Part shown: piece by piece, positions 875 to 37,712 of the stretch
How the letters are laid out: each line of letters opens with the position of its first letter
Position numbering within the stretch: position 1 is the stretch's first letter
NCBI GenBank assembly: GCA_028279045.1
Contig: JANQSZ010000029.1
Span: 1 to 40,194 of the forward strand
DNA length: 40,194 bases
Direction: 5' to 3'
DNA from: Candidatus Nanoarchaeia archaeon
GTDB taxonomy: Archaea; Nanobdellota; Nanobdellia; Woesearchaeales; UBA10216
The notes under the pieces: model-generated
What the model saw: the letters and a program-made list of their open reading frames with translations, nothing else
What the model was told of the DNA's origin: nothing
The model's database searches: none
Made by a program: the position numbers and the translations under genes

Positions 875-3800
875 GTGCATTCCGCAACTACAGTATACTT
901 GGGGGAGTTAGACATTACTAAGATTCGAACATCATTCACCATTTTTCTTCTAGTCATGTCCCTATTGACCACATTTCCAGTAAGCGGAACAGGCGGTCAG
1001 CACGATACAGGTTCGCTAACAGTCTGTAAAGTAATCGCAGATGATGGAGAAGTCAACGATGGTATTGACTATGTAGGTGATTCGTTTGAAATCGACATCA
1101 CAGGCCCAAACAACTTTGATGAAACAGTAACCTTTGAAACTCCTCTTGATCTTAATACGCAGGTTTTCCAGAATGGCGATGAGGCACAATGTGTTGAATT
1201 CGACAACCTTCCTTTAGGAAGCTATGATTATTCTGAAGAGACCATCGATGGTGATGGTTGGGCAGAACCACTCTATAATGATCAGTACAATCAAAATGTT
1301 AACACGCTTGATGACTTTTATGCATTTGATGAAGATAACGTCAACAGCAACGGGGGCGTTCAACTCACAAGCAACAAGCCAGATCGTGAGATCATCATTT
1401 TGAATCAACGTCAGCTTGATATGGTTGAGCGTGGTATCAACACGTGTACTGGTGAAGGCGAACTCTACCTTTACCAAGGTATCCAAACACAACCGATCGC
1501 AACAACATTTGAAGTTGACCGCGATCAAGTACTTATTTTCGCACGAGCTCACGCTTCATTGTCAGCTAAAGTAAATGGTGCAAATGCTCCTTTAACATTA
1601 GAAGCTGACGAAGCATCTCCTTTCGCAATCAAGATATGGTCTATCGAAACCAGTCCTGGCGATGTTGTTGAAATCTCAGGTACTGCAGACTGGAATGCAC
1701 GTTCTGTCCAGGGATATATTGCACAAGATGAAGCAAACCCTGTCTTTGACTTATCCACTCTTGAAGTCGTCTACGATGATGGCGACTCAAATGAAATGTT
1801 CCTTACTCCAGGAGAATACTCATATGTAGTTTTCGACAAATACACAAAGCACAATGGCGGTGGACAAGACAACCGCGTGCTTAACGTCGACGTTACAGGT
1901 CCTTCTGGTTCAGTTTATGATGACACATTCACACAACCGCTTCCTGTTGGAACACAGGGTGTTGTTGTTGATGAGTTTACTGTAACAGAATCTGGTTCCC
2001 ACGTTTTCTCTGTAGAAACGCAAGATAGCGTCTACTGGATGAACTTCGAATGCCCAGAAGAAGAACTTCTTTGTGGCGACGGCGAAGTCAACCAAGAATG
2101 GGAAACTTGTGATGACGGAAACAACGAAGACGGCGATGGCTGTTCTGCTTTCTGTCAAGAAGAAGTATGTGATGACATTCACATTATTGATTTCGAAGAC
2201 CTTGATGCTGGTGAAATTGTAAATACACAAATCAGCGGCGTTGAAATTTTCTGTAATAATAACAATGGTCCTGATGAATGTATTGTATTTGATTCTGCAA
2301 ACCCAACTGGCCAGGATGAAGACTTGGGAACACCAAACGAATTGTATGGTGGCCCTGGTATCGGCGATGCTGGTGCATCCAACCAGGTAGCAATGGATAA
2401 TATTCTTATCGTTGCCGAGGATGTTGTTGACAACAACAACGATGACCTTGTCGATGATCCTGACGACGAATCTCAAGGAGGACGATTTGTTTTCGACTTC
2501 GGAGACAATGTTCAACTTACAGAAGTAGTTATTGTTGACATTGAAGAAACCAGCGGTACTATTTCAACAGACGAATCAGATGTTAATATTCCAGACACAG
2601 GAGATAATTCTGTTCAAGTACATCCTTTGGATGACTCGACAGATAGCCTTGTTGTTATTCTTTCCGGCTCTGGTGCAGTCGGCCGTGTAGCATACTGTCC
2701 ATTGGCTTTCTGTGGTGATGGCGTTGTTGACGATGGTGAGCAGTGTGATGATGGTAACGATAACAACGATGATGAATGTACAAACGAATGTAATTACACT
2801 TTTTGTGGAGATGAAATAGTTCAATCACCAAACGGTGAAGGGCAAGGCGGCCCTAACGACGACGGTTACGAAGAATGCGATGATGGCAACTTTGACAATA
2901 ACGATGACTGCCGAAACGATTGTACTGTTCCGTTCTGTGGCGACTACATCCTAGATGATGGCGAGGATTGTGATGATGGTCCTAATGGCTCTGATCAATG
3001 TACGCCTGAATGTACGTTTACCTTCTGCGGTGACGGTGTCGTTCAAGATCCTAACGGCTTAGGCCAGTCGGAAATGTGTGACGACGGCAACGATAACAAT
3101 AATGATGCATGTCGCAACGACTGTACATATTCAATTTGCGGTGATTACATTGTAGACGAAGGCGAGGATTGTGACGACGGACCTAACGGTTCTGAGCAAT
3201 GTGATGCTCAATGTTTGCATACGTTCTGTGGAGATGCTTCTGTTCAATCACCAAACGGTGAGGGAACTGGTGGCCCACTTGATGATGGCTATGAGGCCTG
3301 CGATGACGGCAACCTAGCTTACGATGATGCTTGTACACCATTGTGTACAAAGACATTCTGCGGTGACGATATTATTCAATCACCTAACGGCAACGGCCAG
3401 TTTGAAGAGTGTGAAGATGGTAACGCTGTGGACGGAGATGGTTGTGATCATAAATGTCGTATTGAAGAGTGCGGCAACGGTCGACTAGATGTTGGCGAAG
3501 AGTGTGATGATGGCAATCTAGTTGATGGTGATGGTTGCTCAGCATTGTGTACTGTTGAAGAATGTGGAAACGGTATTATTGATGCAGGCGAAGAGTGCGA
3601 CGATGGTAACGATGACAACTTCGATGAATGTCGTAACGATTGTACTGCGCCTTTCTGTGGAGATGGCATCCAAGATGATGACGAAGAGTGTGATGACGGC
3701 AATGATGACAACAACGACGATTGCCGAAATGACTGTTCTGCTCCGTTCTGCGGTGACGGTATCAAAGATGATGGCGAACAATGTGATGATGGCAACAATG

Positions 3801-21391: not shown

Positions 21392-21521
21392 TCTCAAAAA
21401 GAGCCATACCACGCAACTATAAATAACTATTTTATATGCATTATATAATTCGAACTGAAGGTTCTCGTCCTGGATTGGTAGTGATTCTCGTCAATTTGGG
21501 TTTGAAACCTTGGAGGGTCAA

Positions 21522-22379
21522 ATGTCGCTCGACGGATACAGAAGTGTTATAAATTCAACAATCTTTGCTGGTCAAATGAAGGACAAAATTCGACAGAAAT
21601 TAGAGATTCTTCTTGAGGAGGGAAAAAGTTTCAACTTCTCCAATTTTGCTATGATAAGTTTGATGGGGTATCCAGAATCATATAGTTCCGAGTACATCAG
21701 CTGGCGAACCCGAGTCTCAACCATCATAGAGAAGGCCTTTGGCCAGAGCAGTGCGGTTTATCAAAATTATCAAAAAGGGGGAGAAGTAAGAGTTCTGGGA
21801 TACCCCTCTAGCAATTTCAATAAAGCTCATGCGTACTTTCTAGGAGCAATTAGGTCAGGAATAGATTTGATGGACTTGGGTATTGGCAATGATGAAGAAA
21901 AAACTGCACCTAGTACAGCTTCATTGGGCAAGGAAGTCTTCATTGTTCATGGTCACGATGAAAAATTAAAACAACAAGTCGAAATATTCTTGAAGGAACG
22001 TGGCCTAACTCCGATAGTCTTACATAGGCAACCAGATGAAGGTAGAACTGTGATTGAAAAGTTTGAAAAGCACAGTAAAGTTGGCTACGCGATCATTTTG
22101 CTTACTCCAGATGACATCGGTTATTCCTCTGCAGAAGGAATTAAAGAAGAGAATGAAAGAAAAATCAATTTTAGAGCGAGACAAAATGTTATCTTTGAGT
22201 TTGGGTACTTTGTAGGCAAACTTGGAAGGGGCCGGGTGTGTTGTATTTTTAAAGAAGGGGTTGATCTACCAACAGATGTGTCTGGAATGATTTACAAAAG
22301 TGTTAAGGATAATGTTGAAGAGGTTGGCTTATCAATAATGAAAGATCTGAAGGCAGTGGGTTATTCAATTGCGATATGA
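21522..22379 (+). CDS. TIR-like predicted nucleotide-binding protein (PF10137-type, CAP12/PycTIR-like)
   Basis: 'KEVFIVHGHDEKLKQQVEIFLKERGLTPIVLHRQPDEGRTVIEKFEKHSKVGYAIILLTPDDIG...RARQNVIFEFGYFVGKLGRGRVCCI'. ATG 21522 follows SD-like GGAGGG; a TTG start at 21510 is also possible. Confidence 0.88.
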   Translation: MSLDGYRSVINSTIFAGQMKDKIRQKLEILLEEGKSFNFSNFAMISLMGYPESYSSEYISWRTRVSTIIEKAFGQSSAVYQNYQKGGEVRVLGYPSSNFNKAHAYFLGAIRSGIDLMDLGIGNDEEKTAPSTASLGKEVFIVHGHDEKLKQQVEIFLKERGLTPIVLHRQPDEGRTVIEKFEKHSKVGYAIILLTPDDIGYSSAEGIKEENERKINFRARQNVIFEFGYFVGKLGRGRVCCIFKEGVDLPTDVSGMIYKSVKDNVEEVGLSIMKDLKAVGYSIAI

Positions 22380-23548: not shown

Positions 23549-23661
23549 TAACCTTCGCCTAACCAATATTAAGCGTTCTTAGGAAATCTTCCGAATTCTT
23601 CCCAACAATTCTTTTGAATCCCAAAGATAACTATTTATACATGAAAGATTCATCAAACGTC

Positions 23662-23766
23662 ATGAAGGAAGGCATATGGTATGTTAATTTTCAACCAACT
23701 GATGTAGCGTTCGATCCGTCGGTTTTTGATGAAGTCTTGAAGGAGCTTCATGAAAAACGACAGTAA
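23662..23766 (+). CDS. Micro-cassette 1, small ORF a (34 aa; 41 aa if started at 23641)
   Basis: MKEGIWYVNFQPTDVAFDPSVFDEVLKELHEKRQ; TATA (tttata) centred 25 nt upstream of this ATG; paralogous context at 23993. Confidence 0.55.
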   Translation: MKEGIWYVNFQPTDVAFDPSVFDEVLKELHEKRQ

Positions 23767-23911
23767 GTTTGTTCTGATGATTGAGCAAGATAGAAATACG
23801 TATAGTATGCGTTGGGGTAGTGTTGGCGTTCCTAAGGAGATTATTATGGCGAGACTAGAAGCCCTACTTCGCAGGTTTAAAGACGAGTTCTATAGCGATT
23901 TGAAGAAATAG
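23750..23911 (+). CDS. Micro-cassette 1, small ORF b (53 aa)
   Basis: MKNDSKFVLMIEQDRNTYSMRWGSVGVPKEIIMARLEALLRRFKDEFYSDLKK; similar to ORF b of cassette 2; overlaps ORF a by 17 nt. Confidence 0.6.
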   Translation: MKNDSKFVLMIEQDRNTYSMRWGSVGVPKEIIMARLEALLRRFKDEFYSDLKK

Positions 23912-23992
23912 CGTCGATTTTCCGACTCAATCTAAGCAAACATTAAGAACTCCAAAGATACTTATTTATACATGGAACAATCAAAGGGGAAT

Positions 23993-24097
23993 ATGAAATA
24001 TCTCAAACCTGGAGTTCTGTACTTAAGCAAGAACTACTCGAAGGAAGACATCCCCCGTATTAGAAAATTTATGGGGCTGGATGATGAAGACGAGTAG
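23993..24097 (+). CDS. Micro-cassette 2, small ORF a (34 aa; 41 aa if started at 23972)
   Basis: MKYLKPGVLYLSKNYSKEDIPRIRKFMGLDDEDE; TATA centred 25 nt upstream. Confidence 0.55.
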   Translation: MKYLKPGVLYLSKNYSKEDIPRIRKFMGLDDEDE

Positions 24098-24275
24098 ATT
24101 TCAATTCTTTATTGAGGACTTAGGTCCTGACTCACCTACGAGGTTTGGTTTTGGTTGGCAAGACGGCAATATTCCGAAAGAAGTCGTTCTCTCTATGACT
24201 GCTGCTTTTCTTGAAATCCAGAAGGATGAATATCAACGCTGGTTTGAAGGTAACTTGGGAGAACAATCAGAATAA
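24081..24275 (+). CDS. Micro-cassette 2, small ORF b (64 aa)
   Basis: MMKTSRFQFFIEDLGPDSPTRFGFGWQDGNIPKEVVLSMTAAFLEIQKDEY...; aligns with 23750..23911 product; overlaps ORF a by 17 nt. Confidence 0.65.
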   Translation: MMKTSRFQFFIEDLGPDSPTRFGFGWQDGNIPKEVVLSMTAAFLEIQKDEYQRWFEGNLGEQSE

Positions 24276-24285
24276 ACGCGTAGGA

Positions 24286-24582
24286 TTATTCAATTCTCAA
24301 ATCGATTCCAAACTTTACAAGTACATTGTATACAAGTGCTCCGACAAGTCCAGCAACAAACCCAACTACAGCACCGATTAGTGGCATGCCAATCAAAGCG
24401 CCAAACGCAAGTAACGTTCCACTACTCAGTCCAGGTGTTTCTGAAGAAGTCATCAGACCTGCACTCACGAGTCCATCAATGAGTAGCCCACCAAAAGAAT
24501 ACACTATTCCTGCAAGCAATCCAACACTGCCTATTAACACTCCTGTTAACTTCGCTGCACGAAACACGTTAAGTGTTGCCAT
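24286..24582 (-). CDS. Small Gly-rich membrane protein
   Basis: 98 aa, two hydrophobic segments. Confidence 0.6.
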   Translation of the reverse strand: MATLNVFRAAKLTGVLIGSVGLLAGIVYSFGGLLIDGLVSAGLMTSSETPGLSSGTLLAFGALIGMPLIGAVVGFVAGLVGALVYNVLVKFGIDLRIE

Positions 24583-24712
24583 AGGTGTTGATTGTTTTTG
24601 AGCTTATTATATCTTTCCCTATTCGAACATCTTCCGACGAGATCGGAAGTTTGCACAGGCCACTAGACACGTTACCGTAGCTGTTTTTAATGATGAAAGA
24701 ATAAAAGAAATT

Positions 24713-24837
24713 GTGCCGGCGTAGGCAAGTCTGGCAAGCCGCTTAGTTGAGAACTAAGTGTCCATAAGGACTCCTGGGTTCAAAAACTTTTCGGTCACTA
24801 GACTGGCCGGTGAGTTGAATCTCCCAGCGCCGGCGCA
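24713..24837 (+). tRNA. Class II tRNA, anticodon GAG (Leu), with T-loop intron
   Basis: GTGCCGGCG...CGCCGGCGC acceptor pairing, D-arm GGC/GCC, anticodon arm CTTAG-TTGAGAA-CTAAG, variable arm GTCC-ATAA-GGAC, T-stem CTGGG/CCCAG, followed by ACCA. T-loop TTCAAAT restored by removing 24785-24821. Confidence 0.8.
24785..24821 (+). other. Predicted 37-nt BHB intron in tRNA T-loop (position 59/60)
   Basis: TTCA/TGAA central helix, bulges AA|A and TC|T, inner helix ACT../..AGT. Confidence 0.65.
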
Positions 24838-25039
24838 CCATTCCAATAAGAATATTCTATTCAACACAATATTAATACTCGAATACTACAGAAACAGCAT
24901 GATACACAAACATCTTGTTGCAATTCGTAACATGAGTTTCGAAGAAATACATTCGTTGCGAACGTGTTACGATGCAGCGTGGGAAAGCGAAGATGAGTGA
25001 TGCACAACATTTAATAACTTCATTTGATTACATTTTTTT

Positions 25040-37066: not shown

Positions 37067-37393
37067 ATGGCAGTCGATGACGAGTACATAACTGGCTCCG
37101 ATCTCTCGAAGGAAGCCATCTCAGACAAACACAGTAGCTACATCTATGAAATCCCTGTCTACGACCGAGAAACACTGCATCAAATTGAAAAATTGCTCGC
37201 CGAGAACGGCTACAAAGATATCGATCAAGTTACCGATCACATTTCTTGTTTAGAACAACTCGAACAACGCATCGCAGCAGTAGTTTCGCAGGAATCCTCG
37301 ACGAGAATAACAGATAAGGATCTTCTCATTTACTTAGAGAGAATCCGTGATCGTTTACATCAATTATTTAAAGTACGGGATCGTTTGAAATAG
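37067..37393 (+). CDS. Hypothetical protein, tandem paralog 1
   Basis: Shares Y-D-x-E...QI..LL.E..Y.D...DHISCLE..E.R.A with the next ORF. Confidence 0.7.
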   Translation: MAVDDEYITGSDLSKEAISDKHSSYIYEIPVYDRETLHQIEKLLAENGYKDIDQVTDHISCLEQLEQRIAAVVSQESSTRITDKDLLIYLERIRDRLHQLFKVRDRLK

Positions 37394-37394
37394 A

Positions 37395-37712
37395 ATGCCA
37401 GAAGATTTCGAACATTACGGACGATCTGTCGACGATATCGAGTTTCATAGTAGTTCATTCTACGACGATCTCCCTCATTACGACGCTGAATCTATTCGAC
37501 AAATCAAAACATTTCTCAAAGAAAAGAAGTACACTGACAAAAAAACAATTAACGATCATATTTCTTGTTTAGAAAATATTGAGAAACGTCTTGCACTATT
37601 TGTAAGCAATATGCAAGAAGAAGGACGTTACGATCAAGACCTTGACCACGACGTGAAAATGGTCAGAAACCTTGTCTCAGAACTCATTAGAATTAAACAA
37701 TCTATTGCTTAA
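37395..37712 (+). CDS. Hypothetical protein, tandem paralog 2
   Basis: See previous; separated by 1 nt. Confidence 0.7.
   Translation: MPEDFEHYGRSVDDIEFHSSSFYDDLPHYDAESIRQIKTFLKEKKYTDKKTINDHISCLENIEKRLALFVSNMQEEGRYDQDLDHDVKMVRNLVSELIRIKQSIA

Follow-up and report, generated by a model that had tools for sequence, protein, structure and literature searches.

The analysed stretch of DNA (the window, 40,194 nucleotides), one contig (C22) of a 1.0-Mb MAG (genome G000), contains two tandem copies of a two-gene cassette in which the proteins have diverged and the promoter has been kept. Direct reading of the sequence showed that each unit comprises a TATA promoter, a small ORF a and an overlapping ORF b, and that the units are spaced 331 bp apart (Table 1). 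Homologues retaining both ORFs were found in more than 20 genomes. The reading that we tentatively prefer, while stopping short of calling it probable, is that a and b form a translationally coupled small-protein pair, probably present as one complex and co-regulated, with a plausible link to proteostasis or stress. Conserved and selected two-gene microprotein operons missed by standard annotation thus lie in the intergenic gaps of DPANN genomes.

The promoter 23-mers starting at 23621 and 23952 match at 21 of 23 positions, the near-identity reported by the first-pass annotation, and the best other match in the same genome did not exceed 18 of 23 (998 kb scanned); the promoter pattern has two occurrences only in the genome of the window. 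The element CCAAAGATA was found upstream of none of 888 other genes and is not a general promoter element in this genome, so joint duplication of promoter and ORFs is the best interpretation. Upstream of 888 genes of the window genome, the TATA hexamer forms a sharp peak at −30 to −28, and many transcripts of this genome should therefore be leaderless. Since TTTATA lies exactly at −28 of ATG 23662 and ATG 23993, inside the genome-wide peak, a leaderless ORF a of 34 aa is the likely reading for both units, in agreement with the start that had been assigned to them; both frames also allow a start seven codons earlier (41 aa). A TATA promoter precedes ORF a only and is missing before ORF b. The ORF b products of the two units align as claimed (16 of 51 residues identical, pairwise E-value 2e-6), and BLAST gave no alignment between the two ORF a products. 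No Rfam match was obtained in the region.

Table 1. Features of the two cassette units in the window (positions are those of the whole window).
Feature	Position	Strand	Remarks
Unit 1 operator-like palindrome TTAGGAAATCTTCCGAAT	23579–23596	+	83 bp before leaderless start; score 17.3
Unit 1 promoter core	23621–23643	+	CCAAAGATA and TATA element TTTATA (23634–23639), −28 of ATG 23662
Unit 1 ORF a, 34 aa	23662–23766	+	Position and similar helix pattern as in other cassettes; 41 aa if start at 23641
SD-like GGAG within unit 1 ORF a	23742–23745	+	4 nt ahead of ORF b ATG
Unit 1 ORF b, 53 aa	23750–23911	+	Family profile match; in alignment A4
Unit 2 weak palindrome copy GTCGGAAAATCGACGCTA	23909–23926	−	84 bp before leaderless start; score reached by 4% of background
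Unit 2 promoter core	23952–23974	+	CCAAAGATA and TATA element TTTATA (23965–23970), −28 of ATG 23993
Unit 2 ORF a, 34 aa	23993–24097	+	Low-confidence AF2 model, two short helices; 41 aa if start at 23972
SD-like GGGG within unit 2 ORF a	24073–24076	+	Precedes ORF b
Unit 2 ORF b, 64 aa	24081–24275	+	Family profile match; predicted beta hairpin and long helix

A first scan of genome contigs with the two sequences gave no match; a two-sequence ORF b profile found homologues in other genomes, and an iterated profile search yielded an alignment of 24 members (A4). At E ≤ 1e-3, ORF b was matched in 26 of 359 Woesearchaeales genomes (about 7%, a lower bound because families shorter than 70 aa are under-detected, and with all comparisons made among MAGs). 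It was also present in a few genomes of other orders of the same class, and none was found outside the class in the phylum sample. The loci inspected in G192, G288 and G303 contain ORF a and an overlapping ORF b behind a TATA-like element, and loci L007/L088 and L008 are genuine family loci as well. Weak matches of the first class search (L009, L011, L013, L016, L019 and others) were rejected as chance. The overlap of exactly 17 nt holds for both units of the window (23750–23766 and 24081–24097), but it is not a hallmark of the family, since a overlaps b by 1–52 nt in 26 of the 27 loci at which the ORF b start could be measured, and a gap of 10 nt separates them in one. The SD-like sequences of ORF b are located within ORF a. 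A separate observation concerns L043 (G484 C19, 530–781), where a deletion fuses ORF a to the ORF b helix in one frame with loss of the beta hairpin; this locus is a decayed or fused cassette.

The rough consensus of ORF b is F.L.I...(G)...N.GIP.E.VL..LR.WLR..E..Y...F. The alignability of ORF a is far below that of ORF b. The divergence of ORF a noted in the first-pass annotation was borne out for the two units, but most members have in common a short helix pattern of the type [FW]xx[VIL]xx[LMF][FLI]G, and by eye many ORF a peptides could be read as an amphipathic helix D..[FW][FWI]..[VIL]..[LMF][FLI]G. The AF2 model of unit 2 ORF b had a pLDDT of 81.7 and contained strands at 6–12 and 21–27 and a helix at 33–63, and that of ORF a was of low confidence; the input alignments had five rows only. 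Foldseek searches of PDB and BFVD with ORF b gave no significant match, and no match worth the name was obtained for the family in Pfam, NCBIfam, PADLOC or PDB sequences. Matches in PHROGs were isolated and weak, and none was convincing; that of one member to phrog_6248 (4.6e-5) was judged to be chance because no other member matches it. On these sequence and profile comparisons, ORF b is the founder of an undescribed family.

Evidence of selection came from the related genomes G481 and G490. Between them, dN and dS were 0.083 and 1.04 for ORF a and 0.029 and 0.73 for ORF b, which corresponds to a dN/dS below 0.1 for both ORFs. Outside the overlap, 18 codons of ORF a differed, of which only 5 changed the amino acid (dN 0.078, dS saturated). 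A dN/dS far below 1 indicates that, in that lineage at least, both ORFs are translated and under selection; the purifying selection on ORF a was measured in this pair. Chance small ORFs behind a duplicated promoter, which their shortness and the lack of matches in family libraries could suggest, are refuted by these ratios and by the retention of both ORFs in more than 20 genomes, and the probability of this explanation is practically nil: by conservation and substitution pattern, a and b are not chance ORFs. The functional overlapping pair proposed by the first-pass annotation was thus upheld by the homologues and by the dN/dS values, and the SD-like GGAG and GGGG make its coupling likely.

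A near-identical promoter next to fast-diverging a and b was observed in three cases: the window units, a tandem pair in G288, and the orthologous cassettes of G401 and G402. The G288 copies, 389 bp apart, have near-identical promoters and first codons, with b identical at 19 of 51 residues; tandem copies are known in two genomes, that of the window and G288. In G401 and G402 the core promoter GACGATAGAAATATAAATAAGTTC is identical and the flanking proteins are mostly 78%–90% identical (66% for one Nudix-like neighbour), with b 38% identical and a about 45% identical over the aligned part. These alignments show that a and b changed rapidly, or were replaced, at a fixed site. Elsewhere in the window, at 37067–37712 (+), there is a tandem paralogous pair encoding proteins of 108 and 105 aa with 37% identity.

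Alignment of the upstream regions revealed a palindrome with a consensus of about TCGGAAANNTTNCCGGA, mostly starting 62 bp (±1) before the leaderless ATG. For 15 of 24 cassettes, the palindrome had a background fraction below 0.02 (leave-one-out PWM, congeners excluded, 318 TATA promoters of other genes), with the consensus derived from the cassettes themselves, a circularity that the leave-one-out design addresses only in part. The best-scoring "background" promoter has its site in common, divergently, with a cassette. The unit 1 score was reached by none of the 318 background promoters, and this palindrome ranks with the highest-scoring intergenic sites of the genome; its position at −83 is about two helical turns further than −62. 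Exact matches to the palindrome are rare, 0–7 per genome versus 0–2 for a reversed control pattern. Other genes also have the palindrome upstream, frequently with an unchanged spacing: small-protein genes, of which many encode membrane proteins, an L10e-type gene and a tRNA. The TCGGAAANNTTNCCGGA box, a cis-element at fixed spacing, defines a candidate small-protein regulon in these uncultured archaea of the Woesearchaeales.

Several further sites were recorded. At loci L102, L106, L108, L110, L114 and L115, the TCGGAAANNTTNCCGGA box precedes genes for small membrane proteins; several of these genes are bicistronic, and the spacing is often 62 or 83 bp. At L105 (G351 C2), an operator-like site precedes an 84-aa gene that is VapB-like by eye, with a different spacing (about 104 bp). 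In the window, a second palindrome, CTTCCGACGAGATCGGAAG (24628–24650), lies upstream of a minus-strand gene for a 98-aa membrane protein (24286–24582); its spacer is longer than that of the operator. A 172-aa HTH protein (G000 C19, 1438–1956) with a near-perfect copy of the site upstream of itself was considered as the regulator and rejected after inspection of 14 genomes: the site is missing at its homologues, and the protein is missing from several motif-rich genomes.

Distant ORF b homologues of 79–119 aa, lacking ORF a, were found between dnaK and dnaJ in G210, G564, G565 and G566. The same gene run includes grpE, and in G565 also hsp20 as well as an HD-type gene between dnaK and dnaJ; Pfam HSP70, DnaJ, GrpE and HSP20 were identified at these loci. 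Profile A8, built from the dnaK-operon homologues and one other b homologue with no cassette member, found the cassettes with both ORFs in six genomes (1e-11 to 8e-5), and hhalign against A4, which contained no dnaK-operon members, gave a probability of 96.5% (E-value 1e-9). Homology of ORF b to the gene in the dnaK–dnaJ gap is thus supported by profile matches in both directions, the link comprising four genomes of two families and profile similarity of sub-100-aa proteins. In the grpE-dnaK-dnaJ operon of the window genome (G000 contig C30), tblastn found no ORF b in the dnaK–dnaJ gap; b may therefore work in trans, or else the association may be confined to particular lineages. No palindrome was found at the DnaK operons, apart from a single weaker one ahead of hsp20 in G565.

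The genes around the cassettes encode mostly housekeeping functions, such as topoisomerase, lysyl-tRNA synthetase, Rpb7-type proteins, NDK, methylases and others. Among 19 other cassette neighbourhoods, one contained a clear adjoining defence-type gene (AbiEi, in G303), and PADLOC "mad2" and DinG-type matches near cassettes probably reflect generic methylase or helicase similarity. A TIR gene located 1.2 kb upstream of the window cassettes strongly matched the PADLOC candidate PDC-S35. The first-pass annotation had pointed to the adjacent TIR/RHS genes; since the other neighbourhoods are mostly housekeeping, these genes give no guide to function, and the setting looks incidental. Conservation of neighbours was also set aside as a clue, since it holds between related genera only, and cassette synteny is kept between only some of these. 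No mobile-element context of the cassettes was seen, annotated phages and plasmids contained no convincing ORF b match, and neither they nor the 19 neighbourhoods pointed to a consistent defence-island or phage location.

Other features of the surrounding DNA were as follows. The TIR gene with the PDC-S35 match, at 21510–22379 (+) of the window, encodes a CAP12/Pycsar-type protein and is followed by the gene for a 339-aa membrane protein without a family. At 24715–24838 (+), there is a tRNA-Leu-like gene (anticodon loop TTGAGAA) with the T arm split by about 34 nt (AAACTTTTCGGTC...GGCCGGTGAGTTG), and a second tRNA-like gene, L171 (G000 C28, near 1560–1720, minus strand), has the same insert in the same place. 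The insert probably represents a non-canonical archaeal tRNA intron; a search with ARAGORN in its bacterial mode gave no match at these genes.

The spacing of the TATA promoter puts the start of transcription on the ATG of ORF a or immediately beside it, so that ORF a should be read leaderless, and the start codon of ORF b lies within the last part of ORF a, preceded by an SD-like sequence. In the preferred reading as a coupled pair, the short amphipathic-helix peptide a and protein b, with its beta hairpin and long helix, could be produced in a fixed ratio by translational coupling and may bind each other, and one regulator may switch the pair together with other small proteins. The position of ORF b homologues in the dnaK–dnaJ gap of four related genomes suggests, less strongly, that the pair might also be an accessory of protein-quality control or the stress response. 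A chaperone role fits poorly with how quickly a and b diverged between two species whose flanks are otherwise similar; such speed would be unusual for a core chaperone accessory. Rather doubtful, in our estimate, is a larger scheme of a Woesearchaeota-specific stress system, in which the TCGGAAANNTTNCCGGA box at a fixed −62 (or −83) would be the target of a dedicated regulator that switches on microprotein operons including a/b, and b would be a partner of the Hsp70 system, diversifying between species behind a fixed promoter.

The first-pass annotation had named, as one example, a toxin-antitoxin-like module, in which one small protein would inhibit growth and the co-translated other would neutralise it. 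Such a module would suit a pair of very small co-translated ORFs that is patchily distributed (about 7% of genomes), occurs in tandem in the two genomes named above and diverges rapidly between species at one conserved site, but Pfam, NCBIfam and PADLOC gave no match to a toxin-antitoxin family and PHROGs no usable one. Moreover, ORF b occurs without ORF a in the dnaK-dnaJ operons and apparently also in G274, the pairing being seen in all close relatives only; no mobile elements were seen in the context; and the regulator site is common to unrelated genes and is not an obvious autoregulatory site. By these comparisons the module fails on two tested features, family similarity and pairing in all relatives, and we consider it unlikely. 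An anti-viral, anti-defence or host-interaction effector pair engaged in an arms race is improbable. The conserved promoter with diverging a and b in three cases, the TIR defence candidate upstream and the AbiEi gene adjoining the G303 cassette are what would be expected of it, but the neighbourhoods are otherwise housekeeping, the cassettes are retained in synteny between related genera, and annotated phages and plasmids lack a convincing match. Neither the toxin-antitoxin-like nor the anti-defence module suggested at the outset was supported by these comparisons.

ORF a could alternatively serve as a coupling or leader ORF only: translating it would expose the SD and start codon of ORF b, and the peptide itself would have no role. 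The SD-like sequences of ORF b inside ORF a agree with this, as do the GGxTGG codons of the common LGW motif, which could double as an SD, and the far poorer alignability of ORF a. However, the substitution pattern of ORF a outside the overlap in G481/G490 and the amphipathic helix pattern common to most members argue for a selected peptide, which makes a leader-only role quite unlikely. The pair represents a reproducible and testable small-protein system missed by ordinary gene callers, and nothing found in this analysis marks it as a defence or toxin system.

With type II toxin-antitoxin modules, the cassettes share size, overlap, bicistronic order, patchy occurrence and tandem copies; unlike them, a and b have no sequence or profile similarity to any toxin-antitoxin family, and ORF b is also found alone. 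Complete, acquired DnaK-DnaJ-GrpE (KJE) systems are present in many DPANN (PMC8204110), and in four genomes such a bacterial-type operon includes an ORF b homologue between dnaK and dnaJ, whereas the window cassettes are separate operons with ORF a and have no KJE gene nearby. We found no description in the literature of a small b-type protein as part of the KJE system; the DnaK-DnaJ link makes the function directly testable with the acquired bacterial-type Hsp70 system. The stop/start overlap of co-directed genes is shared with the archaeal translationally coupled pairs described in PMC6728339. Compared with these, the overlaps of the cassettes often exceed ATGA/TGATG and reach up to 52 nt, both genes encode microproteins, and coupling is read from the arrangement of the genes. 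A second start inside the first ORF, an internal SD-like sequence and a single promoter were all found in units 1 and 2, and the overlap recurs in 26 of the 27 loci.
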